Source of the DNA: a virus
Length of the DNA: 42,811 nt
Direction: 5' to 3' (one strand)
IMG/VR virus record: IMGVR_UViG_3300003267_000105
Span: 1 to 42,811 of that record
Below, piece after piece: positions 1 to 42,811 of the stretch; the first letter of the stretch is position 1; each line of letters opens with the position of its first letter. The translations under genes were made by a program, and so were the position numbers. The notes under the pieces are model-generated. The model made no database searches and had not been told where the DNA came from. It saw only the letters and a program-made list of their open reading frames with translations.

Positions 1-11
1 CGCTATTGGTT
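1..11. repeat. Terminal 11-base overlap (copy 1)
   Basis: The first 11 bases, CGCTATTGGTT, are identical to the last 11 (42801-42811). Joining the ends through this overlap keeps the exonuclease frame open from 42723 to 723. The best reading is a circular or circularly permuted genome cut inside a gene. It is too short to be a typical T7-like terminal repeat. Confidence 0.85.
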
Positions 12-3357: not shown

Positions 3358-3373
3358 TTTACAGGAGCGCACA

Positions 3374-6542: not shown

Positions 6543-6769
6543 ACATAAAAATTACCTGGGCAAAGAATGGCATTCATGTCTCTGAGAAAGAGAATGAATG
6601 GAGCGCGATCTATCCAGACACCACGGACGGTAAGCTCGAATTTCTGAATGACTTCATTGATGTGATGGGATGGCGTGGAAGTCGCTATGACAAAGAACGA
6701 ATTGGTGTACAGGTGTATGAGGGCGATAAGTACGAAGCGCCGAAGGAGACAGATAATGCTGCATTCTAA
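6539..6769 (+). CDS. Hypothetical protein, 76 residues
   Basis: The frame is coupled by ATGA to the preceding gene and overlaps the next start by 14 bases. The product is a small, soluble, tryptophan-containing mixed alpha/beta protein (MNIKITWAKNGIHV.., ..FIDVMGWRGSRYDKERIGVQVY). No family is recognised. The position between nucleases suggests a replication-region accessory protein, without direct evidence. Confidence 0.65.
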   Translation: MNIKITWAKNGIHVSEKENEWSAIYPDTTDGKLEFLNDFIDVMGWRGSRYDKERIGVQVYEGDKYEAPKETDNAAF

Positions 6770-7448: not shown

Positions 7449-7687
7449 GCGAAGTTCACGACGACCTGAACCATCCGCTGTATGAGTGGACACAAGTAAT
7501 TACACATGAAGAACTACATATGCTTGTTGATGAGTTAGCAATGAGCATAAAAGAAACAAAGTGGTATCAAATTAGAGAGCGACTGATGTTACAGGGTGCA
7601 CTTAATGCCATTAGTATCTTGTTGATCTGGCTACATTATGGAAAACCCAAAAACGGAATCACGCTCCGCCAAGGGAGTCCTCAATGA
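7445..7687 (+). CDS. Hypothetical protein, 80 residues
   Basis: The ATGA overlap with the exonuclease stop and GGGGAACGG upstream support ATG 7445. The product is mainly helical (EELHMLVDELAMSIKETKWYQIRERLML) with a hydrophobic C-terminal helix (ISILLIWLHYG). It overlaps the protease start by four bases, so the two are likely co-translated. No family is recognised. Confidence 0.65.
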   Translation: MSEVHDDLNHPLYEWTQVITHEELHMLVDELAMSIKETKWYQIRERLMLQGALNAISILLIWLHYGKPKNGITLRQGSPQ

Positions 7688-8469: not shown

Positions 8470-8602
8470 GTACCGGCTCGACAAACCAGAGAGCATTCCT
8501 GGTAAGTCGCATTACGCTGCGTACCGTGAAGACATATCAACATTACTGCAGATTATAGAGGAGCTACAAAATGAGCGAAGAGAACAAGAAAGAAGAAGTT
8601 AA
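8432..8602 (+). CDS. 56-residue hypothetical protein
   Basis: This short frame fills the gap between the protease and the gene at 8571, overlapping them by 38 and 32 bases. The product is charged and helical (MRWDLETILKAIKYRLDKPE ... IIEELQNERREQERRS). AGGA precedes the ATG at a usable distance. Dense overlapping packing throughout the operon supports it. No function is known. Confidence 0.55.
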   Translation: MRWDLETILKAIKYRLDKPESIPGKSHYAAYREDISTLLQIIEELQNERREQERRS

Positions 8603-8798
8603 GAAACTGACTCGTGATATCTTGAATAAGCAAGTTGAAGAGTCGAGGAAGGCTATCAATTATGCCCAGCAAAGCATTGCTGCCTTTACTCAGCAGCTCC
8701 AACAGCAAATGGGAATTCTGAATTACGCAGAACACCTGTTAAAGCAATTCGACATTCCCGAAGGCACTGCTCCTGAGAAGCCATTCGAGGTGAAGTAA
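8571..8798 (+). CDS. Coiled-coil hypothetical protein, 75 residues
   Basis: The start is preceded by AGAGGAGCTACAA, a good ribosome-binding site. The product is almost entirely charged helix with glutamines (KKEEVKKLTRDILNKQ .. QQSIAAFTQQLQQQMG), probably an oligomeric coiled coil. The stop and next start share one base (TAATG). The function is unknown. Confidence 0.7.
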   Translation: MSEENKKEEVKKLTRDILNKQVEESRKAINYAQQSIAAFTQQLQQQMGILNYAEHLLKQFDIPEGTAPEKPFEVK

Positions 8799-9025
8799 TG
8801 AATGCGAAGAAAGCGAAAGCTATCCGTCGAGCATTCAAGGCTCAAGGGGCGGAGACGGCTTATCGTTACAACATCTCTGTGAAGCCTTATGAAGCAGTCG
8901 ATGGAAGCCACAATGCTCGCTATCGCTTCTCGATTGAGAATACCGGACCTAAGCGCCTCTATCGGTTCGGGAAGATGATGTACCGAAAGTTCAAGGTGAT
9001 GCCCAATGTTGATATTCCAGTTTAA
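8798..9025 (+). CDS. Hypothetical basic protein, 75 residues
   Basis: The frame is coupled to the preceding stop (TAATG). The product is lysine/arginine-rich at its N-terminus (MNAKKAKAIRRAFKAQG) with a beta-rich middle (YRYNISVKPYEAV, ARYRFSIENTGPKRLYRFG). Nucleic-acid binding is possible from the charge alone. No family is recognised. Confidence 0.65.
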   Translation: MNAKKAKAIRRAFKAQGAETAYRYNISVKPYEAVDGSHNARYRFSIENTGPKRLYRFGKMMYRKFKVMPNVDIPV

Positions 9026-9251
9026 GGACCACGATGCTGCGTTGGAATTTTGGCGCAGAGTTCAAGAGCGTAATGCAAACACGCTAACAGAGCGACAAGC
9101 GATATTGCTTGAGATGTCGCGTGAAGGACTAATGGAGCGTGTGATGCAAACGAAGCGCTCACAGGAAGAAGTGATGAAAGAGTGGTCGAAGCATTACAAG
9201 GTACTTCATATCAAAGCTAAAGGAGCTAACGATGAAATACGAGGTGATTAG
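9006..9251 (+). CDS. Hypothetical protein, 81 residues
   Basis: The frame overlaps the previous gene by 20 bases and the next by 20. The product is helical and charged (DHDAALEFWRRVQERNAN, GLMERVMQTKRSQEEVMKEW). No strong ribosome-binding site is seen at 9006, so the start is tentative. The function is unknown. Confidence 0.6.
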   Translation: MLIFQFKDHDAALEFWRRVQERNANTLTERQAILLEMSREGLMERVMQTKRSQEEVMKEWSKHYKVLHIKAKGANDEIRGD

Positions 9252-9630
9252 GTACGAGTACCTGCCAGATCGCACTCTCGGTGAGTTGGAGATCGACGGT
9301 AAATTTTTCTGCTACACGCTCGAAGATCGTGTGCGCCCTCCTGGTGAAAAGGTGTACGGGGAAACTGCCATTCCCGAAGGGGACTACAAAGTAACGATTG
9401 AGCCTTTCCGTGGAGATAAGAACAAGATGTACCCCTATCTTCACAATGTCCCGATGTTCACTGGCGTGTGTATTCATGGGGGCAATAAACCTGAGGATTC
9501 GCTTGGCTGCATTCTCGTGGGTTTCAACAAAGATGACGGCACTATTTATGGATCTGCCGTGAAAGAGCTGTCAGCCAAGATGCAACAAGAGAAAGGTGAG
9601 ATCCGCCTTAAAGTTCGGAATGGAGGCTAA
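9232..9630 (+). CDS. DUF5675 family protein
   Basis: The 132-residue protein carries the DUF5675 pattern: a strand TLGELEIDGKFFCYTLED, then ETAIPEGDYKVTIEP, VPMFTGVCIHGGNKPEDSLGCILVG. The invariant His in IHGGN and Cys in LGCILVG are reminiscent of L,D-transpeptidase-like folds, but catalytic function has not been established to my knowledge. Members are common in phages and near lysis or cell-wall genes. AAAGGAGC upstream of the ATG is a good ribosome-binding site. Confidence 0.8.
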   Translation: MKYEVIRYEYLPDRTLGELEIDGKFFCYTLEDRVRPPGEKVYGETAIPEGDYKVTIEPFRGDKNKMYPYLHNVPMFTGVCIHGGNKPEDSLGCILVGFNKDDGTIYGSAVKELSAKMQQEKGEIRLKVRNGG

Positions 9631-9632
9631 CA

Positions 9633-10037
9633 ATGGACCAGGAATTAGACAACAAACTATGTCAGGACTTTCCCAATGTATTTGCCGATAGACGTGCATC
9701 CATGCAAGTGACCTGTATGTGCTGGGGATTTTCTTGCGGGAATGGTTGGTATGGAATCATACGAGAAGCCGCTGAAAAACTTGAGCCATTGATTGAGGCA
9801 TACAAGCGTGAGAATCCTACTGATGAAGCTCCTCGTGCATCTCAGATCAAAGAAAAATTCGGCACACTGCGATTCTATTTGTCACACGGTACAGATGAGA
9901 TGTTCAAGATCGTTAGTGATGCTGAGCAGAAAAGCGAAACAGTGTGCGAAAAGTGCGGAAAGAAAGGACGGCTACGAAAAGGTGGTTGGCTACGTACCTT
10001 GTGCGCCAAGTGCCACAAGGAGAGAACCAATGCCTAG
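9633..10037 (+). CDS. Conserved phage protein with zinc ribbon
   Basis: The 134-residue protein has a recognised phage pattern: CGNGWYGIIREAAEKL, then IKEKFGTLRFYLS, then SETVCEKCGKKGRLRKGGWLRTLCAKCH. The C-terminal CEKCG ... CAKC is a zinc ribbon. This family recurs in phages and has no assigned function. The start has GGAGGCTAAC upstream, and the stop overlaps the next start by eight bases. Confidence 0.75.
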   Translation: MDQELDNKLCQDFPNVFADRRASMQVTCMCWGFSCGNGWYGIIREAAEKLEPLIEAYKRENPTDEAPRASQIKEKFGTLRFYLSHGTDEMFKIVSDAEQKSETVCEKCGKKGRLRKGGWLRTLCAKCHKERTNA

Positions 10038-10560
10038 ATCAGCCCTACCCCCACATTTGAATGATCCAGAGGAAATTGAGAACGCATTTCCTGACGACAG
10101 CCAGTTCGGTACTGATGCCTGGTACGGAAGACTTTATTGCTGGTACAACAAGAAGACGAAGACATGGTTTGCCTTCAGTTATCGCTGCACTGAGTCGTGG
10201 GCAAGATGGCGTAAATACCCTGTGATTCTATTTGCATTAAAGGGTAAAGGACCGTGGCGTGTTGAAGGAGAAAATGGAGATCGACCGGTTGCGATAAAAG
10301 TCAATCAACCTTGGTATCGGTTTTCTCTTAAAGAGGAATACCTGTCTCGAATCCAATACTGGACTCGATGGCACGTCGCTATCCAATGGCCACTCATGAT
10401 CTCCTTCCATTTCTATGTTAAGGCTAGTGATGTGCCTGTGTATGGCGAGCCACGGCCTGAGCTGGATGGGAAGCTCTGGTTTGCTTACTGGAATCACTTC
10501 GACGCTGATCTCGTGTACTGGATGATTACGAGTGCGTACCTGGGCAGGAACTGGAAATGA
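10030..10560 (+). CDS. Hypothetical protein, 176 residues
   Basis: ATG 10030 follows AAGGAGAGAACC; the longer frame from 9793 reads through the previous gene. The product is rich in tryptophan and tyrosine (GTDAWYGRLYCWYNKKTKTWFAF, PWYRFSLKEEYLSRIQYWTRWHVA). A mildly hydrophobic stretch, AIQWPLMISFHFYVK, is present. It looks like a soluble or peripheral phage protein. No function is recognised. Confidence 0.7.
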   Translation: MPRSALPPHLNDPEEIENAFPDDSQFGTDAWYGRLYCWYNKKTKTWFAFSYRCTESWARWRKYPVILFALKGKGPWRVEGENGDRPVAIKVNQPWYRFSLKEEYLSRIQYWTRWHVAIQWPLMISFHFYVKASDVPVYGEPRPELDGKLWFAYWNHFDADLVYWMITSAYLGRNWK

Positions 10561-10964
10561 ACGAGATGAACCGCATACATAACTCCAGTAATCCCTATCA
10601 AGGCAAGTACAAGCGTGTGCTCTGTGTATGCTCCGCAGGTTTGCTCCGTTCACCTACAGCAGCTTTTGTCCTCTCGAAAGAGCCTTTCAATTTCAATACC
10701 AGGGCTGCAGGTCTCGATGAGTCTTTTGCATTGATACCAGTTGATGACGTGTTGCTGTCATGGGCCGATGAAGTGGTGTGTATGGACGAGTATCAGCAGA
10801 AAGTATTGAAAGAGCGAACAAAGAAACCTGTTCACAATCTGAAGATTGGTGACAACTTCGAGTACCGAGATAAGGGACTCATGGACATTATTAAACGTCG
10901 CTACTTAGCGATCTTGGAGGAGCAGAAAAATGGCAAAGGAACCGACGTACGAATTGACGCCTAA
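10557..10964 (+). CDS. Protein tyrosine phosphatase-like protein
   Basis: The 135-residue protein contains the P-loop CSAGLLRS (Cys25-x5-Arg31), the catalytic signature of low-molecular-weight and related cysteine phosphatases. It follows a hydrophobic strand (KRVLCVC) as in that fold. A candidate general acid lies in the ADEVVCMD segment. Related phage genes are often annotated as predicted protein tyrosine phosphatase. The substrate is unknown; host kinase signalling or tRNA/nucleotide phosphate removal are possibilities. The start overlaps the previous stop by ATGA. Confidence 0.75.
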   Translation: MNEMNRIHNSSNPYQGKYKRVLCVCSAGLLRSPTAAFVLSKEPFNFNTRAAGLDESFALIPVDDVLLSWADEVVCMDEYQQKVLKERTKKPVHNLKIGDNFEYRDKGLMDIIKRRYLAILEEQKNGKGTDVRIDA

Positions 10965-11151
10965 AGGCTACGTAAGCCTCGAAACCAATGATGCTGGTCT
11001 TACCGATGCCATCTTGGATTCGCTGGAGCTGGCTGCTCGTCGTAAAGAATGCAACGCATTGCTTATAGATGACGAAGGATGGAAATTTATCAAGGTGGAG
11101 AAAGCTAATGAAGCTAACAAGAAAACACATCGGAAAACTGTTCGACGTTAG
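10930..11151 (+). CDS. Hypothetical protein, 73 residues
   Basis: The start is preceded by TTGGAGGAGCAGAAA. The product has an acidic, helical core (GLTDAILDSLELAARRKECNALLIDDEGWKFI) and a basic tail (KKTHRKTVRR). It overlaps both neighbours by about 35-44 bases. The function is unknown. Confidence 0.65.
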   Translation: MAKEPTYELTPKGYVSLETNDAGLTDAILDSLELAARRKECNALLIDDEGWKFIKVEKANEANKKTHRKTVRR

Positions 11152-11350
11152 AGGCGGGGATGGGAGCTGGGTTTATCAGCTCGTGGATGTGAAGAAAGGC
11201 TGGCTTCTCTTCTATAGCTTCCATGCTGGTGAAGGTGCCTATTTCAAAGAACGAGTTGGTGAATACCACGATTGGAGACCTTTCAGACCTCTTAAAGACT
11301 GGCCTGAGAACTGGCGGAATTTTGGCTGGACGACTGCGAGGGACAAATGA
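11108..11350 (+). CDS. Hypothetical protein, 80 residues
   Basis: ATG 11108 is preceded by GGAGAAAGCTA. The product (MKLTRKHIGKLFDVRGGDGSWVYQLVDVKKGWLLFYS) resembles a small beta-barrel of the KOW/SH3-like type by pattern. Aromatic residues are common. No function is recognised. Confidence 0.65.
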   Translation: MKLTRKHIGKLFDVRGGDGSWVYQLVDVKKGWLLFYSFHAGEGAYFKERVGEYHDWRPFRPLKDWPENWRNFGWTTARDK

Positions 11351-11478
11351 AACGTTCAAAGAAGCTTGCAAGAAAATTGGCTGGCAGGATTGCAGATTGG
11401 GAGAACTTGATGAAGAGCAGTACAGACATTGTACGCAAGCATCCCAAAGGCTTTAAGAAACCAGGATCAAACAAATGA
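11347..11478 (+). CDS. 43-residue basic peptide
   Basis: The frame is coupled by ATGA at both ends. The product is strongly basic (MKRSKKLARKLAGRIADWE ... RKHPKGFKKPGSNK), suggesting nucleic-acid contact. It is too short for family assignment. Confidence 0.55.
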   Translation: MKRSKKLARKLAGRIADWENLMKSSTDIVRKHPKGFKKPGSNK

Positions 11479-11633
11479 CGAAGAAGCAGCTTATTCATCA
11501 AATTGAACAAGCCATTCAAGAACTTGGAACACCAACGATGAGCTATGCACCAACCGTGGAAGCGGCTGAATTGCGAGCCATTGTTAAATGTGTGGCTGCT
11601 CGATTGATGAGAGTACTGAGGCTACTTAAATGA
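11475..11633 (+). CDS. 52-residue hypothetical protein
   Basis: This is the next link in the ATGA-coupled chain. The product has two predicted helices (KKQLIHQIEQAIQELG and AAELRAIVKCVAARLMRVLRLLK). The second is amphipathic and basic. The function is unknown. Confidence 0.55.
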   Translation: MTKKQLIHQIEQAIQELGTPTMSYAPTVEAAELRAIVKCVAARLMRVLRLLK

Positions 11634-11836
11634 ACATTCTGGATTTTCGTGAATGGACCGCATGGGTGATGGAGTTCGTCATCATGCTCTATGTCGTGAA
11701 AGAGTTCTACTACGACAAAGGTAAGGACGATAAGAAACAACGTCGTTCACGGACTATCAAGAAAACCACTACAGCTCCGAGCGGTGAGGTTATCACTGAG
11801 GAGCAAACAGAGACGGTGACAAGCAATGAAAAATGA
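11630..11836 (+). CDS. Single-pass membrane protein, 68 residues
   Basis: The N-terminal half holds one hydrophobic helix (WTAWVMEFVIMLYVVKEFYY). The rest is a highly charged, threonine-rich tail (GKDDKKQRRSRTIKKTTT). The layout is compatible with a membrane anchor or i-spanin-like protein, but no partner is evident. It is coupled by ATGA at both ends. Confidence 0.65.
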   Translation: MNILDFREWTAWVMEFVIMLYVVKEFYYDKGKDDKKQRRSRTIKKTTTAPSGEVITEEQTETVTSNEK

Positions 11837-11928
11837 AATGGGAAGTTGGACCTACAACACAACTAGCGGAAATTTCACTTATTACTCACCCACTTGGATT
11901 TACAGGAGGATCACATGGCAGGACGTAA
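11833..11928 (+). CDS. 31-residue leader-like peptide
   Basis: A short frame begins at an ATGA overlap and ends just past the start of the next gene, covering an otherwise empty 78-base gap. It contains the next gene's ribosome-binding site (ACAGGAGG). It may be a real peptide or only a translational coupler. Confidence 0.4.
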   Translation: MKWEVGPTTQLAEISLITHPLGFTGGSHGRT

Positions 11929-12178
11929 AAGAAAACTTCGTGAGATGTTGGACTATCACGAAGGGCTTTCTTCAAACCAAGTCCACATTATTCTTCGAGA
12001 ATTCGGCCTTGAGCACACATTCGACGAGTTCAACGAGTGGCTCTACGGTCAAACCTGCCCCATCATCAAAAGGGGCGGAGAGTACGACATATGGAAATCC
12101 GTCGGCGGAGTCTACGAGTACGACCTATTCCGTTTCATCGACTCGAAGAAAACGGGCATCCCGCCAGCGTGGGATTAG
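11915..12178 (+). CDS. Hypothetical protein, 87 residues
   Basis: ATG 11915 follows ACAGGAGGATCAC, a strong ribosome-binding site. The product begins basic (MAGRKRKLREMLDYHEG), continues with a helix-turn-helix-like stretch (SSNQVHIILREFGLEHTFDEFNEWL) and ends acidic. It sits just before the HTH and integrase genes, so a regulatory role is possible but unproven. Confidence 0.65.
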   Translation: MAGRKRKLREMLDYHEGLSSNQVHIILREFGLEHTFDEFNEWLYGQTCPIIKRGGEYDIWKSVGGVYEYDLFRFIDSKKTGIPPAWD

Positions 12179-12241
12179 GCCGTTCTCCGAGTGTCTCTGT
12201 CATGCTCCTTGGCGTCTTGGCTGGAAACATGGAAAGAAACG

Positions 12242-12496
12242 ATGTTACAAAAGAATGAAATGATTGAGCTGATTTCTCTATCTGATTTGTCTAAGGCTAT
12301 CAAGATTAGCGAAAGCACTTTGAAATACTATGCTAAACATGGTAAACTTCCATACTATAGGATTGGCAAGCACTTGAGGTTCAAAGCTAATGAAGTGGAA
12401 GAGTGGTTGCATAGTGTATCCGTAAAGCCCTACGACAGAGGTGTGTATGATCCGAAAATGGAAAAATCGCCGTTTACCACGCGGCATAATGGTTGA
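12242..12496 (+). CDS. HTH_17/excisionase-family DNA-binding protein
   Basis: This 84-residue protein has the winged MerR-like helix-turn-helix of the excise/HTH_17 family: LISLSDLSKAIKISESTLKYYAKHGKLPYYRIGKHLRFKANEVEEWL. It lies directly upstream of, and overlaps by 50 bases, the integrase, the usual place for a recombination directionality factor. ATG 12242 has GGAAAG upstream; ATG 12260 is an alternative. Expected role: bending attachment-site DNA to favour excision, or repressing the operon. Confidence 0.8.
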   Translation: MLQKNEMIELISLSDLSKAIKISESTLKYYAKHGKLPYYRIGKHLRFKANEVEEWLHSVSVKPYDRGVYDPKMEKSPFTTRHNG

Positions 12497-13580
12497 AAAA
12501 GGCAAAGTTTGGATTCGCATACTTCCGAACGGTAAGCAGTTCCTCCAATGCTTTGGAGATGCCGACAACCCCAACAATATCAATCTCGCCATCAGCAAGC
12601 TGAATGAATACCGTGACGAGATACGCAATGACCGATTTGGAATTGAACGAGAAACCAAACGAGTCAAGTTTCGTGATGCTGTCGCACTTTTCGAAAAGAA
12701 GGTGGGACAGACCTATCGCTATCAGATACCTGGACTTATTCTGTTTTTTGGAGATTTCTGGTTCGATGAACTGAACCATGTGAAAGTAGCCAAATTTCGT
12801 CCCTTCCGCACGTCAGAAAAAGGTGGTGGTATTTCTGACAGCACAGTGAACCGTGAACTCACGGCTCTCTCCGTCATTTACTACAAGCTCAAATCCTTGG
12901 TAGAATTAAAAGAGATCGAACCAATTAAGCTTCCACCAATCAGTCCATGTAAACACGTGGAGCGGTTTGATGAGCGTCTGGCTCGCCGTAAGCGTGTCCT
13001 TTCAGAAGATGAGTTTCAGCGGTTCATGACCGTTGCTCATCCCGAAGTTCAACGAGTGTGCCTGGCAGCTCTCAATACTGCATTACGTCGCAAGGATCTT
13101 TTTGCAATTACAGTGAACAATGTGGTGAATGACAGTAACCTTGAGGGTATGCAACACAAAACAGAGAATCCTTATATTGTGCCTAACAACCAGAACATGC
13201 TGCAGCTTTTTCAGGATGCGAATGGCACAGCGTCTGTGCTTAACTCCACAGGCTTTCGTGAACGGTTTGAAAAGTCTCGTGATCTCTTCCTGGCTCAGTA
13301 CCCTGAAGAACAGCGCAACAGACGATTCTTTCAATTCCGTGACCTTCGTCGCACCGCATTGCGAAAGGTGTATGACAAGACTAAGGACATCCTTTTGTGC
13401 AAAGAGCTGGCTGGGCATACAAACGTACTAACCACTCAGTTGTACCTTGGACTCACCAAGGCGGACATTCAGAAGGCTGGGAGTGTCCTAGAAGAGAGCT
13501 TCTCGTACAGAATCCAAACTGCCGGTGTTTCTGTAGGTGAGGAGAAGCGGCAAATCGGCTTTACTGCCGAAAATGCTTGA
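12447..13580 (+). CDS. int: Tyrosine-family site-specific integrase
   Basis: This 377-residue recombinase has an N-terminal arm/core-binding region and a C-terminal catalytic domain. Catalytic residues visible: Arg in NTALRRKDLF, Lys in QHKTENPYIVP, Arg in DLRRTAL, His in LAGHTNVLTT and the nucleophile Tyr in TTQLYLGLT. The first residue of the H-x-x-R box appears to be arginine (FRDLRRT) instead of histidine, which is uncommon. It would integrate the phage at a tRNA-Leu gene: a tRNA-Leu half lies 12 bases past the stop. ATG 12447 is preferred over GTG 12441. Confidence 0.93.
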   Translation: MIRKWKNRRLPRGIMVEKGKVWIRILPNGKQFLQCFGDADNPNNINLAISKLNEYRDEIRNDRFGIERETKRVKFRDAVALFEKKVGQTYRYQIPGLILFFGDFWFDELNHVKVAKFRPFRTSEKGGGISDSTVNRELTALSVIYYKLKSLVELKEIEPIKLPPISPCKHVERFDERLARRKRVLSEDEFQRFMTVAHPEVQRVCLAALNTALRRKDLFAITVNNVVNDSNLEGMQHKTENPYIVPNNQNMLQLFQDANGTASVLNSTGFRERFEKSRDLFLAQYPEEQRNRRFFQFRDLRRTALRKVYDKTKDILLCKELAGHTNVLTTQLYLGLTKADIQKAGSVLEESFSYRIQTAGVSVGEEKRQIGFTAENA

Positions 13581-13742
13581 GAATCATTTACGCGCAGGTG
13601 GTGGAACGGCAGACACGCCAGCCTCAGGAGCGCGAGAATGGAGCAAAATAGCCCCATATGTTTAGAAATAATGAATTTAAGGCAGCAGTTACGACTAGTG
13701 AGATGGTTAAGTTAGGACCGAACTGCCGGTAAAACTGCCGGT
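13518..13742 (+). repeat. AACTGCCGGT direct repeats, candidate integrase arm-type sites
   Basis: The decamer AACTGCCGGT occurs at 13518-13527 (inside the integrase end), 13721-13730 and 13733-13742, all in the same orientation, flanking the tRNA-like core at 13592. The last two are spaced 12 bases apart. Direct repeats on both sides of a core are the usual layout of integrase arm-binding sites. A fourth copy lies far away at 36132-36141, so another role is possible. Confidence 0.5.
13592..13629 (+). other. attP: Candidate attP core: 5' half of tRNA-Leu(CAG)
   Basis: The sequence folds as the first half of a leucine tRNA: acceptor strand GCGCAGG (13592-13598), TG, D-arm GTG ... CAC (13601-13603 with 13614-13616, loop containing GG), then anticodon 5' strand CCAGC and loop CTCAGGA with anticodon CAG at 13625-13627. 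The match ends after the anticodon loop: the next bases cannot pair as an anticodon 3' strand, and no T-arm follows. Being just after the integrase gene, it is best read as the phage attachment site for a host tRNA-Leu gene. Confidence 0.8.
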
Positions 13743-14371: not shown

Positions 14372-14877
14372 TGGAGGGAAGAGTGAAGAGAGTCGGCGAT
14401 ACTGCGTACAGCTCCTGGGAACCTACTGAACACGGTTCCATTCCTGAAGCTGGTGCTAGCCGCGACTCGACCTGTATGAGTGTCTATGAGGCGTACGTTC
14501 GCAGACAGTACCTGACCTTTCATGCTGATCTCCTTGGCTCCTGGCTCGTAAGGCATTACAGACCCTACTAGCAGTGCATCGACGTTCAGGATCTCTCCAA
14601 GTTTGATTGCAGTCGAGGTAGGCATGACACCAGTCCAAGAAAGCTTTTGTTCTGCAAGCACCTGTTCAAGCTGACCACGCTCAATCAGGTCATACCCCAT
14701 CCCCATAAGCTCTGTACCCAATGCGTCGGCCAGAGCCATGTTCAACTCTTGATCGCTACCGGAGAAAGGGGTAATAGCGATTTTCGTCACTTTGATATTA
14801 GATGACGAGTTCTTTGTGGTTTGTACAGAAGCACATCCCACCAATAAAAAAAGGCATACCAACAGCACTTTATTCAT
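14368..14877 (-). CDS. CsgG/LpoB-like outer-membrane lipoprotein
   Basis: This 169-residue protein has a lipoprotein signal (MNKVLLVCLFLLVGC, lipobox LVGC with Cys15; Ala at +2 fits outer-membrane sorting). The mature part follows the CsgG/LpoB/FlgO fold pattern: KVTKIAITPFSGSDQELNMALADALGTEL, YDLIERGQLEQVLAEQKL, GEILNVDALLVGSV and LSANVRLIDTHTGRVAAS. It is the last gene of the late operon. Relatives secrete curli or activate peptidoglycan synthases. In a phage it could aid lysis, exclude other phages or change the lysogen's surface. No downstream terminator is visible. Confidence 0.8.
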   Translation of the reverse strand: MNKVLLVCLFLLVGCASVQTTKNSSSNIKVTKIAITPFSGSDQELNMALADALGTELMGMGYDLIERGQLEQVLAEQKLSWTGVMPTSTAIKLGEILNVDALLVGSVMPYEPGAKEISMKGQVLSANVRLIDTHTGRVAASTSFRNGTVFSRFPGAVRSIADSLHSSLH

Positions 14878-14923
14878 GCCATTAGTATGCCTTAAGTTCT
14901 TAAAATTTCAAGTCAACTTCCGA

Positions 14924-36652: not shown

Positions 36653-36952
36653 CCTGAATGCCTCTGTATATACTGATAGTCTTTGTTATCATAGATATCT
36701 AATGCTAATATGCAGTTAAATTAGTATTAATCTATGATAACAATAGTATAGGTCTCTCTTACCTCTTTCGTTTACTCCCTTTTGACTAATGCTATCTATA
36801 GATAACAATAGTCAATATACATATATGCTGTATACAGACGATGTAAACGAGGGCGATCTTATCCCTACTATATAGGCTATTAAGCACTATTCACCTAGGT
36901 GCTTTTGTCATCAATTTGTCACTAATAATTCACTGGACAAACTAGGCTATCC
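36653..36952. promoter_or_regulatory. AT-rich divergent intergenic region with repeated ATCTAT(A)GATAACAA sites
   Basis: This 300-base region separates the late (-) and early (+) operons. A 14-base sequence occurs as a perfect inverted pair (36683-36696 minus; 36730-36743 plus), and a third, one base longer, lies at 36794-36808. Promoter-like elements exist (TTGACT at 36782 with an AT-rich -10 region; TTGTCA pairs at 36905-36920). It is the best candidate for the divergent early/late promoter and perhaps a replication origin; these uses are inferred. Confidence 0.55.
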
Positions 36953-37168
36953 ATGCTACATATGAGTATGAAGCTAACTATGATGCAAACGAGATTGATT
37001 GAGGCGGCAGAGATGGCAGCGAAAGCCTCTAGCTCAAAAGAGTACGAGAAATGGACCTCAATTTATAGAGCACTCAAGAACCAATGGAACAAGGTTACAG
37101 CGAATGCCGTGGTGGTAGTGACATGCGACGAAGTGAGTATGAGACTAAAAAAGGAGCAAGTGCGATGA
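36953..37168 (+). CDS. First early gene, 71-residue hypothetical protein
   Basis: A helical protein (LIEAAEMAAKASSSKEYEKWTSIYRALKNQWNKV) follows the divergent region. ATGs at 36953, 36962 and 36968 are in frame and none has a clear ribosome-binding site. It ends in an ATGA overlap. The function is unknown; early position makes a host take-over or regulatory role possible. Confidence 0.55.
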   Translation: MLHMSMKLTMMQTRLIEAAEMAAKASSSKEYEKWTSIYRALKNQWNKVTANAVVVVTCDEVSMRLKKEQVR

Positions 37169-37362
37169 ATGACATTTTCGAGCAATTAAACAAAGTAGGG
37201 TACATATGTGAACGTGAGAGATCAAGCGGTCGAAGCTTATCACGTGAAATTCGTACCTTTGTCACTAAGGTATTACAGGATGCAGATAGACTAGGGCTGT
37301 CAAGAAACATGATTAACACATTAATACAAGAAGGTGAGGAAGGATACAGACGCGAGAATTAA
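37165..37362 (+). CDS. 65-residue early protein
   Basis: ATG 37165 follows AAAGGAGCAAG. The product (MNDIFEQLNKVGYICERERSSGRSLSREIRTFVTKVLQDADRLGLSRNMINTLI) is helical with a basic patch, possibly DNA-binding. It is coupled by ATGA to the gene before. The longer frame from 37084 is rejected. Confidence 0.6.
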   Translation: MNDIFEQLNKVGYICERERSSGRSLSREIRTFVTKVLQDADRLGLSRNMINTLIQEGEEGYRREN

Positions 37363-37380
37363 ACAAAAGGAGATATCACA

Positions 37381-37725
37381 ATGAACCTTTATGAAATAGA
37401 ACATTTGACTAAAGATAATCAAGGCTACGTTTACTGGAAAAATACCCGAGTTGAACATTACTCATATAGTGACAAAGATCGTGAAAGGATAGCTGCGGAA
37501 AATCTGGCTGCTGATTGTCGTTTGCTTGAATCAGATGGAGTAAAGGTTAGTCCCGCCAATCTTGGGATTCTTTGGCAGAAACGAGAAATGGACAAATTTC
37601 CTCCCGCTGTTAGGCATGCTGCCGTAAAAATTGCTGGTTCTTACAACATAAACGGAATCTGCGACATACCTTACATTGCAGATGTAATTATGAGTGCCTT
37701 ACGAACAGAAAAGGCTGTGAGGTGA
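37381..37725 (+). CDS. 114-residue early protein
   Basis: AAAAGGAGATATCACA is a strong ribosome-binding site. The product (MNLYEIEHLTKDNQGYVYWKNTRVEHYSYSD .. NLAADCRLLESDGVKVSPANLGILW) is a soluble alpha/beta protein of no recognised family, although the first third resembles other small phage proteins that wrap a YxYW strand. The stop shares a base with the next start. Confidence 0.7.
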   Translation: MNLYEIEHLTKDNQGYVYWKNTRVEHYSYSDKDRERIAAENLAADCRLLESDGVKVSPANLGILWQKREMDKFPPAVRHAAVKIAGSYNINGICDIPYIADVIMSALRTEKAVR

Positions 37726-37931
37726 TGTGTGTCACTAATAGCGATTATCCCTTTAGACAAGGTGAGACTGAGACGGAACAAAATGCTTACAGGCTTCGAA
37801 GGCTTTACGCTAGTTTGGGGAGTGGACGTACTGAGAGTGTACAAGGAGGTCAGGATATGAGACCTATGAAACGACACGGCTGGGAAATTGTGCAGTTGCC
37901 TGACGGTAGCTATCAATGGATCTTGCGATAA
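37725..37931 (+). CDS. 68-residue early protein with strong internal start
   Basis: The ATG at 37725 shares a base with the previous stop. An in-frame ATG at 37857 carries a much stronger ribosome-binding site (ACAAGGAGGTCAGGAT) and would give a 24-residue peptide ending WEIVQLPDGSYQWILR. Either both forms are made or only the short one. The N-terminal part has low predicted structure. Confidence 0.5.
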   Translation: MCVTNSDYPFRQGETETEQNAYRLRRLYASLGSGRTESVQGGQDMRPMKRHGWEIVQLPDGSYQWILR

Positions 37932-37940
37932 GGGGGAGAC

Positions 37941-38213
37941 ATGAAACAAATGATATGTAAAGAAACGGAAGGCACCTATGGTTTTACGTTGAAATACGGG
38001 CGGAGTCTAACCTTAAGGGGCGGTTCGTATGATGCAGTTAAGAAAGACGTAGCCGATATCGTCCACGCCGTCAATTCGCATGGGGCACTGAGTCGTATGG
38101 CACTTCTTTGTTACCGCTATTTAATCAAAGATGCTGCTCAGTCTAAAGAAAATCGAAACTACCTAATTTCACATTTAGAAGAAGTACTCAAACTCACAGA
38201 GGAGAAGGAGTAG
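37941..38213 (+). CDS. 90-residue early protein
   Basis: AAGGGGGAGAC precedes the ATG. The product has a beta hairpin start (EGTYGFTLKYGRSLTLRGGSYDAVKKDV) and a helical C-terminal half. No family is recognised. It belongs to the early cluster of host-specific genes. Confidence 0.65.
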   Translation: MKQMICKETEGTYGFTLKYGRSLTLRGGSYDAVKKDVADIVHAVNSHGALSRMALLCYRYLIKDAAQSKENRNYLISHLEEVLKLTEEKE

Positions 38214-38216
38214 GCC

Positions 38217-38399
38217 ATGTTCAGGAGCGAACGAACCGAACTCACACTGACGCAGATGATTTTACAAGTGAAGGATAGTGACAAGCGCCTAGAGGAACTA
38301 GAGCGAGCATTTAAAGCAGCAGCGCTTAAAACAGCTAACCAGCGTTTCAAACTCAAGCAGGAACAATTTAAGAGTAGATTAACATCGCCTAGTTTGTAG
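38217..38399 (+). CDS. 60-residue early helical protein
   Basis: The product is a charged helix (LTQMILQVKDSDKRLEELERAFKAAALKTANQRFKLKQEQFKSRL), likely a coiled coil. GGAGAAGGAG lies upstream of the start. Function unknown. Confidence 0.6.
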   Translation: MFRSERTELTLTQMILQVKDSDKRLEELERAFKAAALKTANQRFKLKQEQFKSRLTSPSL

Positions 38400-38416
38400 A
38401 ATGCTGCCGAGGCTAC

Positions 38417-38902
38417 ATGGATAACCACGAGTACTGCATAAACGGAGTAGATCTGCAGAAGTATTTGATTGAGCAGTTGCAGATGGCACGTGATAAGGTC
38501 AGCAGGCTAGGACCAAAGACTAACCCTGTAGGCCATGCGTACTTGAACTCTGAGGTGAATATCCTAGAGAGACTAGCCCACTTCGTCGGCAAGATGCTGA
38601 AGGAGATACAAGATAAAGGAGCAGTAGACATGGCTGAACTAAAGAAAGGGCTTGTAGTGCAGACGGTGAACCTTGAGGACTTACCCTTACGACGTACGCC
38701 AAGGGCACTAGAAGAAGAGATGATGGAGACCATAAAGAATCTGAAGGTAGGCAAAGGAGCAATCATCGACGAGCAGTTCATCAAGTACCGAAGCTTGGCA
38801 GCTTACATCAGTAGACTTCGACGCAATGGCAAGCTTGAAGACATGGACGTGAGAGTACGCAAAGATGACAAAGGCAGAGTGATCTTAGCCAGATACAAAT
38901 AG
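38417..38902 (+). CDS. 161-residue early protein, possible internal start
   Basis: The N-terminal 70 residues form helices (LQKYLIEQLQMARDKVSRLG). The C-terminal 90 residues have a DNA-binding flavour (EQFIKYRSLAAYISRLRRNGKLEDMDVRVRKDDKGRVILARY). An in-frame ATG at 38630 (MAELKKGLVVQTV) has its own AAAGGAG at suitable distance, so a 90-residue C-terminal form may also be made. It is the last gene before the riboswitch region. Confidence 0.65.
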   Translation: MDNHEYCINGVDLQKYLIEQLQMARDKVSRLGPKTNPVGHAYLNSEVNILERLAHFVGKMLKEIQDKGAVDMAELKKGLVVQTVNLEDLPLRRTPRALEEEMMETIKNLKVGKGAIIDEQFIKYRSLAAYISRLRRNGKLEDMDVRVRKDDKGRVILARYK

Positions 38903-38905
38903 AGC

Positions 38906-38950
38906 AGTAGACTTTTAAGTAGTAGACCTTTTTGCCGTAGACTTTTTAGT
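38906..38950 (+). repeat. Three tandem 15-base repeats with core GTAGAC(C/T)TTTT
   Basis: GTAGAC occurs at 38907, 38922 and 38937, exactly 15 bases apart, each followed by a T-rich run. The array begins just past the stop at 38902 and ends before the riboswitch. It may be a regulator-binding array for the promoter that drives the riboswitch transcript, or a short iteron group. Confidence 0.6.
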
Positions 38951-38960
38951 TCTTTTCATA

Positions 38961-39040
38961 GTGAAGTTAAGGGCACAGGCGGAGTGATCCGCCCTCGCAA
39001 AGCTATGGGTCTGTAGACACAGATCGCCAAGCTACCGAAT
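38961..39040 (+). promoter_or_regulatory. Cyclic-di-GMP-I (GEMM-I) riboswitch aptamer
   Basis: The sequence AAGGGCA, a perfect 6-base-pair P2 stem (38978-38983 with 38988-38993) closed by a GNRA tetraloop GTGA, then CTCGCAAAGC (38994-39003), TATGGGTCTG, a P3 hairpin and GCCAAGCTACCGA follow the GEMM-I consensus in order and length. By alignment with the Vc2 aptamer, the ligand-contacting G20, A47 and C92 correspond to 38972 (G), 38999 (A) and 39035 (C), all conserved; G at position 20 predicts cyclic-di-GMP rather than cGAMP. A strong terminator follows at 39064. GEMM RNAs occur in some other phages. Confidence 0.9.
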
Positions 39041-39063
39041 AGAGCGCAGCGTAAAGCGCATCT

Positions 39064-39103
39064 AGCCGTATGCCCTTACTCATTGTGGGTGTACGGCTTT
39101 TTT
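39064..39103 (+). terminator. Riboswitch-linked intrinsic terminator with antiterminator pairing
   Basis: A 12-base-pair stem (AGCCGTATGCCC 39064-39075 with GGGTGTACGGCT 39087-39098, two G-U pairs), an 11-base loop and six Ts (39098-39103) form a strong Rho-independent terminator. TGCCCTTA at 39071-39078 is exactly complementary to TAAGGGCA at 38968-38975 in the aptamer, including the ligand-contacting G. Pairing of these would prevent the terminator, so ligand binding should favour termination (OFF switch). Confidence 0.85.
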
Positions 39104-39122
39104 ATTGTCCAAGGAGGACATC

Positions 39123-39188
39123 ATGCTAACTCAAATGATTCGGTTCCGTTACTCCATCTTCGTCTATGTTGATTTCTCTCTTAACTGA
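39123..39188 (+). CDS. 21-residue peptide behind the riboswitch
   Basis: CCAAGGAGGACATC before the ATG is one of the strongest ribosome-binding sites in the window. The peptide is hydrophobic and aromatic (FRYSIFVYVDFSL). It is either a tiny membrane peptide or a leader coupling translation to the next gene. Being directly after the terminator, it is the first target of the switch. Confidence 0.5.
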   Translation: MLTQMIRFRYSIFVYVDFSLN

Positions 39189-39196
39189 GGCGAGCT

Positions 39197-39364
39197 ATGG
39201 ACGAGATGGAAGAGTACAGAAACAGAATCGAAAGACGTTATGGTGACAGACGCAAAAAAGACAGACGACGTTATGTTAGAGCACCGAAGAAGCCTGTTGA
39301 TTGGATCACGCTATTGATGCTGTTGATACTAATGCTGTTTGGATTCGCGATACACGCGGAATAA
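39197..39364 (+). CDS. 55-residue single-TM protein controlled by the riboswitch region
   Basis: The N-terminal half is extremely charged (RRYGDRRKKDRRRYVRAP), followed by one hydrophobic helix (ITLLMLLILMLFGFAIH) near the C-terminus, a tail-anchored layout. It could be a membrane-bound regulator or lysis accessory. GAGGCGAGCT lies upstream of the ATG. Confidence 0.6.
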   Translation: MDEMEEYRNRIERRYGDRRKKDRRRYVRAPKKPVDWITLLMLLILMLFGFAIHAE

Positions 39365-39376
39365 GGAGACGATGAT

Positions 39377-39733
39377 ATGAAACGAGACTTTGTTGCGGAA
39401 CTGAAAACAACTATACGGAAACTTGACAGAGTGCCTCAAGTGGCCGAAGAGCTTAAGCCTAAGATCCAACGGTACAACATTCACAAGCGCAGCCTGCCTG
39501 TGGGCATAGACAAAGTGGTGGTGTTCAGTGTGCTGAAAGCTGAGGCGGAGTGGTGGATAGAGCGCCGACTGAAAGCGAAAGCATACCACGATGATCCAAA
39601 AGACTCAAAGACCATCATCTACTACGACATCATCCCAGTGGATGCTACGCCAAGAGAGCGCAGCGTGTTTCACAATCCTAAAGACTTCGTAAAGGAGGAC
39701 GGTTATGGCCTGCATGGAACACCACTGCAGTAA
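39377..39733 (+). CDS. 118-residue hypothetical protein
   Basis: AATAAGGAGACGATGAT is a good ribosome-binding site. The product is basic (FVAELKTTIRKLDRVPQVAEELKPKIQRYNIHKRSLP), with a middle strand-helix unit (VVVFSVLKAEAEWWIERRL) and an acidic end. It overlaps the next start by 29 bases. No family is recognised. Confidence 0.65.
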   Translation: MKRDFVAELKTTIRKLDRVPQVAEELKPKIQRYNIHKRSLPVGIDKVVVFSVLKAEAEWWIERRLKAKAYHDDPKDSKTIIYYDIIPVDATPRERSVFHNPKDFVKEDGYGLHGTPLQ

Positions 39734-39869
39734 CTGTAACTGGCATGAAATGGATAACGACATCTATAAAGTGTGTCCTATATGCAAGAGCGATTCGATA
39801 ACAAACTGGTTCGATGAAGAGTTCGATCATTATCCAGAGGAAGCATACCAGGAGGATGAAGATGACTGA
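39705..39869 (+). CDS. 54-residue zinc-ribbon protein
   Basis: TAAAGGAGGACGGTT precedes the ATG. Cysteines are arranged as HCSNCNWHE and VCPICKSD, giving a complete zinc ribbon; the C-terminal half is strongly acidic. The stop overlaps the next start. A small regulatory or adaptor role is likely; the function is unknown. Confidence 0.65.
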   Translation: MACMEHHCSNCNWHEMDNDIYKVCPICKSDSITNWFDEEFDHYPEEAYQEDEDD

Positions 39870-40056
39870 GTACATTCAGATAACGATAGATCCATACATC
39901 AACGGCGATGGTCTCCGCATCTACTCGAATCTCGAAAAGGTCGTGAATGAGACGCACGAGGAAAGACTGGAAGCTTTGCGAGTGGTGGAGCGGTGGGTGC
40001 AGGACCGAATCATAGAAGAACTCGAAAGGAGGCACCAAAATGCAGCACATGCCTAG
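39862..40056 (+). CDS. 64-residue hypothetical protein
   Basis: ATG 39862 has CAGGAGGATGAAG upstream. The product (MTEYIQITIDPYINGDGLRIYSN, then a charged helix EERLEALRVVERWVQDRIIEELERR) looks like a small alpha/beta protein. The longer frame from 39814 is rejected. No function known. Confidence 0.6.
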   Translation: MTEYIQITIDPYINGDGLRIYSNLEKVVNETHEERLEALRVVERWVQDRIIEELERRHQNAAHA

Positions 40057-40243
40057 TAAAGCAGAGATCCAATCACAGCAGTCGTGGTGCAGCATTTGTG
40101 AAGAGCAGTTTGGTGGAAAGCAATTCACTGATCGTTTGTGGCTGAAGACAATAGGCAATCGAGATTATCTGGTGTGCAAAAGGCACAGAGGAGGCAGAGG
40201 CTATGGAAGAAACAAGACTGACTCTCGACGAGCTGATTCGTGA
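40040..40243 (+). CDS. 67-residue CxxC protein
   Basis: AAAGGAGGCACCAAA precedes the start. It contains WCSICEEQFGGKQF and a later VCKRHRGG, a small zinc-knuckle layout, with a basic tail. It overlaps both neighbours. No function is recognised. Confidence 0.6.
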   Translation: MQHMPSKAEIQSQQSWCSICEEQFGGKQFTDRLWLKTIGNRDYLVCKRHRGGRGYGRNKTDSRRADS

Positions 40244-40418
40244 GTATCACCACGCTTGTCAGGCTCTCTTCAATGTCTACAACCAGATACGAGTGCACAA
40301 TGAGCATGATCCGAGATTGTCGAGACTGATGATTGCCTTCAATAAGAACAGCGCACTTATGAATCTCTGTGCGGATCTGAAGAGGAGACAAAATGAAACT
40401 CGAAAGTCTGATCTTTAG
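40203..40418 (+). CDS. 71-residue helical protein
   Basis: GAGGAGGCAGAGGCT precedes the ATG. The product (LTLDELIREYHHACQALFNVYNQIRVHNEHDPRLSRLM) is helical, with a basic end. The function is unknown. Confidence 0.6.
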   Translation: MEETRLTLDELIREYHHACQALFNVYNQIRVHNEHDPRLSRLMIAFNKNSALMNLCADLKRRQNETRKSDL

Positions 40419-40554
40419 ATTGAAAGAAGCAGCGAAGGTAGCAGAGGAAGATATGGCTCTCGGCCACATGCAGGCAGATGCAGCGCTGTTGGAGTACATC
40501 AATCACCCAAAGGTGACGGAGGCTTATGACGAGGTGGTGAAAGGTTATGAATGA
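40393..40554 (+). CDS. 53-residue helical protein
   Basis: AAGAGGAGACAAA precedes the ATG. The product (LESLIFRLKEAAKVAEEDMALGHMQADAALLEYINH) is a two-helix protein. It overlaps both neighbours. No family is recognised. Confidence 0.55.
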   Translation: MKLESLIFRLKEAAKVAEEDMALGHMQADAALLEYINHPKVTEAYDEVVKGYE

Positions 40555-40690
40555 GGATTATGCAGCGATGATGAAAGAGCAGCTAGAGAGTCTCAATCAC
40601 AACATGGCTCGAATAGCTGAAGCCCTAGAGAAGCTGGAACACAAAGGGATTCTTGTTTGGCTAGGCGAACAGAAACCAGAGGAGAACTGA
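40547..40690 (+). CDS. 47-residue helical protein
   Basis: The start overlaps the previous stop by eight bases. The product is a short coiled coil (MKEQLESLNHNMARIAEALEKLEHKG) with a hydrophobic end (ILVWLGEQ). Function unknown. Confidence 0.5.
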   Translation: MNEDYAAMMKEQLESLNHNMARIAEALEKLEHKGILVWLGEQKPEEN

Positions 40691-40691
40691 C

Positions 40692-40859
40692 ATGACCAAC
40701 ATTACTGCAGAACGAGATCTTTATGGATGGGTTGTTGTGGTCCGCATTGATAGTTCACAAGAGACTGTAATTGAAGCTTTGCGTGAAGCTGCAAAAGCTC
40801 TGCAAAGAGAGGTGATGCGAAATGAAAGTACTGATCGTAATAATCGGACTCGTTGGTAA
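40692..40859 (+). CDS. 55-residue hypothetical protein
   Basis: AGAGGAGAACTGAC precedes the ATG. The product has a strand (DLYGWVVVVRID) and a helix (ETVIEALREAAKALQREVMR), a small alpha/beta unit. It overlaps the start of the hydrolase gene by 38 bases. No function is known. Confidence 0.55.
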   Translation: MTNITAERDLYGWVVVVRIDSSQETVIEALREAAKALQREVMRNESTDRNNRTRW

Positions 40860-41262
40860 CTTGAAAGTTACTTCGTATCAGAGCCTTGTCAAAGATACTG
40901 ACTCGACTCCGTTTCATACAAGTACCGGTGAGCGAGTGCATGGATATGGAGTAGCGGTCAGTCGGGATCTTCTTTGCGGAGCCTGTCGAAAGCTACGTAA
41001 ACGATGCCAGCATCCTGAGAATCCTACAAAGCTTCATTATGGTGACATGCTTTATATTGAAGATGTAGGAGTGAAGTTTGTGAATGATGTGATGGGCGCT
41101 ACATCATGGAACAAAGCAACAAAGAAGAGAGTGCCTATCAAGCAACAATTAGATGTGTGGGTGCCATCACAGAAAGCAGAGAAAACGTTTCACGCGCAGT
41201 TTGGCAAGCGGAAACTTCAAGTGTGGAAGATTAAAGGAGAAGAACATGAACAAGAAAAATAA
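40822..41262 (+). CDS. 3D-domain cell-wall hydrolase-like protein
   Basis: The 146-residue protein has a short hydrophobic start (MKVLIVIIGLVG), then a double-psi beta-barrel of the 3D family: TSYQS, GYGVAVSRDLL, LHYGDMLYIEDVG, VNDVMG and KQQLDVWVPSQKAEKTFHAQFGKRKLQVW. Asp49, Asp89 and Asp111 are candidates for the three conserved aspartates. Related domains occur in lytic transglycosylases and phage lysis proteins. A CxxC insert (CGACRKLRKRC) is unusual. Proximity to a holin at 41674 suggests a lysis role. Confidence 0.75.
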   Translation: MKVLIVIIGLVGNLKVTSYQSLVKDTDSTPFHTSTGERVHGYGVAVSRDLLCGACRKLRKRCQHPENPTKLHYGDMLYIEDVGVKFVNDVMGATSWNKATKKRVPIKQQLDVWVPSQKAEKTFHAQFGKRKLQVWKIKGEEHEQEK

Positions 41263-41656
41263 AAAGAATCGTCTTGGACGATTGGTGAAGTGGCAAAAGG
41301 TTTCCGTGGTGAACGCTAAAACCGACTACTCAGCAGGTGAGAGAAGTCCTTATTGGGAATGGTTGGAAGAGCGCGACGAGCATTTCTCTTCTGACAACAA
41401 TGCTGAGGACATAGACACGACCTACATGCAAGCAGCGGATGAAGGCTCACTCTATAGAGCCAAGCTCATTGAGGAAGCCTTGGACCTGCTCACTCCACGG
41501 CAGCGAGAAGCAGTTGGGTTACTTGCATCAGGATATTCGTGGGAAGATGCTGCGAAAGAAATGAACATCGCATCATCGAGTTTTTATGAGCTGGTGGAAA
41601 GAGCACGAAGAATCGTCAAAGAGTCCCTAGGTGATGGGGGCTTATCAGCCCTTTAA
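41246..41656 (+). CDS. Sigma-70 region 4-like transcription regulator
   Basis: The 136-residue protein ends in a helix-turn-helix of the sigma region 4/LuxR type: ALDLLTPRQREAVGLLASGYSWEDAAKEMNIASSSFYELVERARRIVKESLG. The N-terminal half is basic, then acidic. It may act as a late-gene activator, like ArpU or sigma-like phage regulators, linking early expression to the late operon. ATG 41246 follows AAAGGAGAAGAAC; the longer frame from 41153 overlaps the hydrolase too far. Confidence 0.75.
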   Translation: MNKKNKKNRLGRLVKWQKVSVVNAKTDYSAGERSPYWEWLEERDEHFSSDNNAEDIDTTYMQAADEGSLYRAKLIEEALDLLTPRQREAVGLLASGYSWEDAAKEMNIASSSFYELVERARRIVKESLGDGGLSAL

Positions 41657-41673
41657 GTAGGAGGACATATCAA

Positions 41674-42099
41674 ATGATCCCAGCCCTACTTGGAATACTG
41701 ACACCTATCATCGGCAAAGTGATTGACAAGATCCCGAATCCTGCCGAGCGTGAAAAAGCACGTCTAGAAATAGAGCTACAAATCAAGCAGCAAGAAACAG
41801 AACTGTTGAAGCTGTTCACACAGAACGACTCTGGACAGATTGAAGTGAACAAGCAGGAAGCCGCGCACTCAAGCATGTTTGTAGCAGGCTGGCGTCCTTT
41901 CGTGGGATGGACCTGTGGAGCTGGTGTGTCATGGGCTTTTGTCCTTAAACCGATTGCAGATTGGATTGTGGCGATAAGTGGTTCAACCATTACGACACCG
42001 GTTATCCAAACCGGAGAGCTAATGAGTTTGCTTCTCGGAATGCTTGGTATGGGTGCTATCCGAAGCTTTGAGAAAGTGAAGGGAGTGGCTTCAAAATAA
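41674..42099 (+). CDS. Three-TM holin (GTA_holin_3TM-like)
   Basis: The 141-residue protein has helix 1 (ALLGILTPIIGKVID), a charged amphipathic section (REKARLEIELQIKQQETELLKLF) and two hydrophobic helices around GWRPFVGWTCGAGVSWAFVLKPIADWIVAI and LMSLLLGMLGMGAIRSFEK. The block W-RPFVGW..G is the hallmark of the gene-transfer-agent holin family. It would open the inner membrane for the hydrolase. TAGGAGGACATATCAA is a strong ribosome-binding site. Confidence 0.88.
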   Translation: MIPALLGILTPIIGKVIDKIPNPAEREKARLEIELQIKQQETELLKLFTQNDSGQIEVNKQEAAHSSMFVAGWRPFVGWTCGAGVSWAFVLKPIADWIVAISGSTITTPVIQTGELMSLLLGMLGMGAIRSFEKVKGVASK

Positions 42100-42141
42100 T
42101 TTGCCTTACATTCAAAGGCGATAACGCATAAGGAGAAAACA

Positions 42142-42609
42142 ATGGCAGAGACATTATCAACAGAAGAAGCGTTGGCGCAGTTCAAGTCCAGCGGTGAAGT
42201 AGAAGAAGTAAAGCGGAAGTTCCCTGAAATTCCGATGGTGCAGGTTCGTGAGAAGAAAGGAAACTACATCAGCGGTGTGCTTAAAAGTTATCGGGAAGTT
42301 CCTGTCCCTAATAGCGGTGTGCGCGTGTTCGTGACGTTGAAGCTTACTTTGACGAATGCGAATGCAATGAAGAAAACGAATGAGAAAGATGCAAATGGGA
42401 AGTTTGTGTACAAGCCTGCTGAAGTCAAAGAGGGTGAGGATGTGAACATTCTTGCTCCGACTCGTCTGGCTCGGATTCTCAAAGACGTGATTCCTGGTAC
42501 TGAAGTGTTCATTGAGTATCTCGGCAAAACCACTGAGATTGAAAAAGGACGACCAGTCACAGCGCATCGGTTCACAGTTCGGGCAAAGAAAGTAGAAGTC
42601 CCGTTCTAA
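42142..42609 (+). CDS. Possible single-stranded DNA-binding protein
   Basis: The 155-residue product is beta-rich (NYISGVLKSYREVPVPNSGVRVFVTLKLTLT, DVNILAPTRLARILKDVIPGTEVFIEYLGKTTEIEKGRPVTAHRFTVRAKKV), matching an OB-fold layout as in phage ssDNA-binding proteins. It precedes the exonuclease and helicase genes. No acidic C-terminal tail is present, so the assignment is tentative. ATAAGGAGAAAACA is its ribosome-binding site. Confidence 0.6.
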   Translation: MAETLSTEEALAQFKSSGEVEEVKRKFPEIPMVQVREKKGNYISGVLKSYREVPVPNSGVRVFVTLKLTLTNANAMKKTNEKDANGKFVYKPAEVKEGEDVNILAPTRLARILKDVIPGTEVFIEYLGKTTEIEKGRPVTAHRFTVRAKKVEVPF

Positions 42610-42722
42610 GACCCACGCTACTAGGGACGACAAAAGATCGAGAGATCCACAAATCGTTCGCCTGTTCTAGGGAAAGCGGTTGCACAGTCAATCGCGCCTC
42701 TTATTTTCAAAAGGAACTATTG

Positions 42723-42811
42723 ATGTCGATTGTCACAACTAAATCATTGGATGGATTACACGAAGCTGTCTTCGAGGAAGATGCTGAAAAGAAAATCCAT
42801 CGCTATTGGTT
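42723..42811 (+). CDS. Cas4/RecB-like exonuclease, 5' part (continues at base 12 across the join)
   Basis: ATG 42723 has AAAAGGAAC upstream. The 29 codons encode a helical start (MSIVTTKSLDGLHEAVFEED) and continue in frame past the 11-base overlap into bases 12-723. The complete protein is 266 residues. See the entry starting at base 1. Confidence 0.85.
   Translation, partial: MSIVTTKSLDGLHEAVFEEDAEKKIHRYW
42801..42811. repeat. Terminal 11-base overlap (copy 2)
   Basis: Identical to bases 1-11. The exonuclease frame crosses it without interruption, giving a unit genome of 42,800 bases if the overlap is collapsed. Confidence 0.85.

Follow-up and report, generated by a model that had tools for sequence, protein, structure and literature searches.

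In C. difficile prophages, a c-di-GMP-I (GEMM-I) riboswitch lies ahead of a long antitoxin RNA and works through premature termination (PMC3649979, PMC7699646), which is the mode of most type I c-di-GMP riboswitches in this species (PMC7699646). Phage GEMM-I elements leading into antitoxin RNAs are, in this sense, already known. Two of them, Cdi1_4 and Cdi1_5 (phiCD630-1 and phiCD630-2), lie near an integrase or lysis module, lead into the antitoxin RNA of a type I toxin-antitoxin system, and are dispensable owing to a stronger promoter, P2. Outside prophages, the Cd1 leader of C. difficile flgB is an OFF switch in which aptamer and terminator coexist and an antiterminator destroys the ligand pocket (PMC9262584). 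Host c-di-GMP also biases the lysis-lysogeny choice of the phage phiVP882 through an unknown effector, and no phage RNA sensor is known to be reported there (PMC11315295). In the open-access literature, we found no phage early operon reported to contain a c-di-GMP riboswitch.

We analyzed a 42,811-base IMG/VR virus record with an 11-base end repeat, hereafter the window (the whole stretch of DNA under study). It contains an element that is likely to be a c-di-GMP-I transcriptional OFF switch (attenuator) in the early operon of a temperate tailed phage. Like Cdi1_4 and Cdi1_5, the element is phage-borne and, as predicted here, terminates transcription in an OFF logic (PMC3649979, PMC7699646), but it interrupts a protein-coding early operon instead of leading into an antitoxin RNA. 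This placement is new, and so is the location of the antiterminator on the 5' strand of the aptamer.

The original prediction had assigned the aptamer to GEMM-I from the letters of the sequence, and a covariance-model search confirmed it: Rfam cmscan matched RF01051 over model positions 1-87 of 87 on the plus strand at 38962-39039, scoring 55.5 bits (E 2.6e-8) where the gathering threshold is 35 bits. This was the sole Rfam match in the window at gathering threshold. The RF01051 alignment places P1 at 38973-38974/38997-38998, P2 at 38978-38983/38988-38993 with a GUGA loop, and P3 at 39001-39014/39019-39033. The order of the parts, the core motifs, G20, GCAAAGC, and P1 to P3 are common to this aptamer and to Vc2 and the canonical GEMM-I members of RF01051. 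According to the alignment and a check of the bases, the ligand contacts are present, namely G20, the intercalating A of GCAAAGC, and the 3' C; the assignment of A47 and C92 is presumed from the alignment and from the Vc2 numbering.

The P2 loop and its candidate receptor differ from those of Vc2 and canonical GEMM-I aptamers, which combine a GAAA loop with an 11-nt receptor. Here the P2 loop is a GUGA tetraloop, P3 is shorter and lacks the 11-nt GAAA receptor, and a plain CU:AG helix step lies at the place corresponding to that receptor (39011-39012/39021-39022). GUGA loops are known to correlate with AG/CU receptors (PMC3494683), and by analogy the CU:AG step is a plausible substitute for the missing receptor. 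This inference is weakened by another phage locus of the survey (L045), where a GUGA loop occurs without the CU:AG step. Among the surveyed phage aptamers listed, a strict pattern of the 11-nt receptor was absent from four of four with a non-GAAA loop and from 12 of the 19 with GAAA.

The base equivalent to G20, which contacts the ligand and sets the preference for c-di-GMP over cGAMP (PMC6456294), is a G at 38972. The main ligand might conceivably be another cyclic dinucleotide, e.g., 3',3'-cGAMP as in the GEMM-Ib type, possibly a defence-related signal, since cGAMP is a possible ligand of GEMM-I aptamers and the preferred one of many Geobacter members (PMC6456294). We regard this as unlikely: the cGAMP-selective reference carries an A at position 20, the selectivity criterion for GEMM-Ib, and the A20G change turns it into a c-di-GMP-selective aptamer (PMC6456294), whereas the window has the G. 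From this base, c-di-GMP rather than cGAMP is predicted to be the ligand.

A linker hairpin at 39040-39063 (UAGAGCGC...GCGCAUCUA) connects the aptamer to an intrinsic terminator at 39064-39103 on the plus strand, made of a 12-bp stem (39064-39075/39087-39098), an 11-nt loop, and U6, with a hairpin energy of about -18 to -20 kcal/mol. A simple terminator scan with a loop limit of 8 misses it. The 5' arm contains the previously described exact 8-base complement (39071-39078) to aptamer bases 38968-38975, an octamer with one further copy on the same strand of the whole window, at 8178. The complementarity proved to be longer than first noted: positions 38955-38975, comprising the 5' leader and the 5' strand of the aptamer with G20 and the P1 bases, pair with 39071-39089, comprising the terminator 5' arm and loop. 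The resulting 19-pair interrupted helix (8+2+9 pairs, two 1-nt bulges) has an energy of -22.2 kcal/mol, against a mean of -10.8 kcal/mol (sd 2.6) for dinucleotide shuffles of the terminator arm. Only 3 of 5000 such shuffles paired as well, and 1 of 5000 random 27-mers from the window reached the observed pairing.

The antiterminator helix uses up both the pocket base G20 and P1. When growing transcripts were folded, those ending at 39076-39094 had an antiterminator pair probability of 1.00 and a P1 probability of 0.00; once the 3' arm was made, the terminator reached a probability of 0.8 and the antiterminator fell to 0.2. P2 and P3 were preserved in both states, which are about 1.5 kcal/mol apart. 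Because the terminator is slightly favoured at equilibrium even without ligand, switching has to be under kinetic control. As in Cd1, the aptamer shares no positions with the terminator, so the bound aptamer is compatible with the terminator and incompatible with the antiterminator. The element thus combines an intrinsic terminator that can coexist with the bound aptamer and an antiterminator that excludes it, and from this combination the OFF logic follows as a prediction, in agreement with what had been proposed for the locus.

In the mechanism that we favour, without ligand the nascent RNA would pair 38955-38975 with 39071-39089, the terminator would not form in time, and the polymerase would proceed into the downstream genes, which extend from 39123 to 42811 and past the join of the record ends. 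With c-di-GMP bound, G20 and P1 would be held in the aptamer, the antiterminator could not form, the 39064-39103 hairpin would fold, and transcription would stop. High c-di-GMP in the host would then lower downstream expression, at least that of the adjoining small accessory genes.

Cd1 shares the coexistence of aptamer and terminator with the window but builds its antiterminator (A with T) from the 3' strand of the aptamer, whereas the window uses the 5' strand and leader with the terminator arm. In the window, 156 of 300 shuffles did as well as the corresponding 3'-strand duplex. Of the surveyed loci that have a strong terminator close by, the 5'-strand antiterminator was found in the window alone (1/300 shuffles), and two others, L124 and L170, were of the 3'-strand type, like Cd1 (3/300 and 0/300 shuffles, respectively).

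The genes around the element form a long plus-strand train, which starts at 36953, reaches the record end, and continues across the join to the integrase that ends at 13580, with gaps that are mostly short or overlaps. The join is real, as originally assumed: two relatives, G004 and G005, carry both of its sides on one contig. An exonuclease ORF from about 42724 reads across it. The structural genes occupy the minus strand, and between them and the plus-strand early genes lies a divergent control region (36683-36815) with operator-like palindromes (TTGTTATCATAGAT/ATCTATGATAACAA and TTGACTAATGCTATCTATA/TATAGATAACAATAGTCAA). A minus-strand terminator hairpin at 14852-14891 (-22.4 kcal/mol, T7 run) ends the structural operon.

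Ahead of the riboswitch are seven small early genes (36953-38902) with the same direction of transcription, so the riboswitch lies within the operon and not at its head. The 220-nt gap that houses it (38903-39122) is the largest between 36953 and the join, and 39064-39103 is the only plus-strand terminator of -10 kcal/mol or stronger with a T run in 36700-42811 plus 1-13600 (about 19.7 kb). The first ORF past the terminator (39123-39188, 21 codons, MLTQMIRFRYSIFVYVDFSLN) has a strong, nearly perfect AAGGAGG ribosome site and may encode a leader peptide or a small protein. It is followed by a 55-amino-acid gene (39197-39364) with a C-terminal hydrophobic segment and no homologue in the relatives, and by the first conserved downstream gene (39377-39733, 118 amino acids), which is 50-57% identical in G004, G005, and G008. 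Further along the plus strand are a sigma-70 region 4-like protein (41153-41656; PF08281, E 3.5e-7; phrog_1740), a holin of the 3TM type (41674-42099; phrog_3427, E 1.1e-30; PF11351, E 5.4e-19), and, across the join, a primase-helicase (638-2188; PF09250, PF13481) and, at the end of the train, a tyrosine integrase (12441-13580; phrog_1, PF00589). Of the downstream genes named in the original prediction, the holin, the sigma region 4 protein, the replication genes (primase and polymerase), and the tyrosine integrase were confirmed, and the hydrolase had no Pfam or PHROGs support. The location fits the proposed gating of the operon insofar as most of the early, replication, and lysis genes lie downstream of the element; it does not fit gating of the operon as a whole, of which seven genes come first. 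The element is so either a mid-operon attenuator or placed behind a putative promoter of its own.

The second of these options draws attention to three AT-rich tandem 15-bp repeats (GTAGACYTTTTNNNN; 38907-38951, plus strand; 33% GC) directly upstream of the aptamer, a possible promoter or regulator site, of which no copies with 0-1 mismatch occur in the window outside 38907-38951. They could be the site of a separate promoter, in which case the element would be a local leader. Under this alternative, a promoter within 38905-38957 would drive a riboswitch that controls only the accessory genes at 39123-39364, and the conserved genes would depend mainly on other promoters. The repeats speak in its favour, as does the precedent of the C. 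difficile prophage element, which controls a local antitoxin RNA and is backed by the stronger downstream P2 (PMC7699646). Against it, we found no plus-strand consensus promoter matching at least 9 of 12 positions in 38850-39400, in a weak scan that would miss one used by an unusual host sigma factor; the same scan agrees with the earlier expectation that no obvious consensus promoter lies just after 39103. Nor does a terminator follow 39364, and 12 nt separate this end from the next gene, so that polymerase reading through would continue into the core genes.

Comparison with relatives bears on the same question. The capsid protein (MCP) has counterparts in ten IMG/VR records (79-89% identity over the matched part), and none of the ten, several of which are fragments, had a match to RF01051 in a search that detects the window aptamer as well as aptamers in 16 other virus records. 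In G004, G005, G007, and G008, the early train reaches the homologue of 39377-39733 with other small genes in the slot, with no such leader and with no terminator of equal strength inside the train. The slot holding the element (37941-39370) differs in gene content in every relative, and both flanks of the element hold genes with homologues in related phages, so the element is phage sequence and not host contamination. To judge from these ten relatives, several of them fragments, the riboswitch looks like a lineage-specific acquisition in a variable slot for accessory genes. Since the relatives run the operon without it, the core programme can do without the riboswitch, and together with the variability of the slot this makes it conceivable that it could control mainly the adjoining small accessory genes, with polar effects further on. 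Control confined to those genes from a local promoter, to which this variability also lends weight, seems to us rather improbable all the same. No Rfam riboswitch was found in the relatives L070, L073, and L078, in which the search returned tRNAs only. Relatives have tRNA genes in the interval from the terminase gene to the early control region (L073:4706-4867, L070:12393-12463), and the window has none.

Presence in this member alone, with absence from all ten relatives, would also be expected of a host leader that was captured or has decayed and now serves no function in the phage. That explanation is very unlikely, however, as the aptamer core, the terminator, and the 19-pair antiterminator are jointly intact, and drift would break parts that depend on each other.

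In the mechanism that we favour, the conserved early, replication, and lysis genes would probably also be lowered by polarity, as no terminator follows the accessory ORFs (39123, 39197); internal promoters may exist downstream of the element. In its strongest form, the riboswitch would be the master attenuator of the early operon, with c-di-GMP, the signal of the attached, biofilm state, stopping the polymerase before it reaches the sigma-like, lysis, replication, and integrase genes. We put this forward tentatively, as a possibility somewhat short of an even chance. Were it true, the lytic programme would be tied to the motile-sessile state of the host with no protein sensor; and if the core genes respond, a short protein-free wire would run from a host lifestyle signal to a phage developmental operon. 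The role proposed here resembles phiVP882, as both concern a temperate phage biased by host c-di-GMP, and differs in the RNA sensor, which is not known to be reported for phiVP882 (PMC11315295). A sensor in the phage's own early transcript would make the kind of question raised by phiVP882 directly testable through point changes in the aptamer, in a laboratory reporter.

Look-ups of the capsid, terminase, polymerase, and holin among known phages indicated no single host group, and a capsid search for prophages in genome contigs, meant to find the host, gave no match. Known phages also gave no megablast match to the right half of the window. In IMG/VR, the primase search returned no match and the upstream gene P0001 had no relative, and a search for a tRNA-type integration site (T-loop pattern) gave nothing above chance. 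A shared expression-platform hairpin (CGCAAAGCY...CGAA...GCGTAAAGCGC) had 11 genome-contig matches, in unrelated taxa, and was rejected as an indicator of host because these are likely due to chance.

The original prediction described GEMM RNAs as known in a few phages. Phage-borne GEMM-I is commoner than that: pattern scans of IMG/VR revealed at least about 20 distinct real phage aptamers. The first of these scans yielded mostly chance matches in coding sequence, among which L003 and L045 alone were real. Among the matches listed, the commonest aptamer was that of the C. difficile phages phiCD27, phiC2, phiCD418, and CD1801, whose element is similar to Cdi1_4 and Cdi1_5. On the 4.6-kb contig of the L045 locus (G024), a distance of 1.9 kb separates two near-identical c-di-GMP-I aptamers, each of which has a GUGA loop. 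Another record (L298, G015:C1) has a c-di-GMP-I aptamer at 4338-4422 on the minus strand, followed directly by a gene with a SinI domain, a holin (PF05105), and an amidase (PF01510). Here a short hairpin whose 3' end carries AGGAGG points to control of the SinI-like gene at the level of translation.
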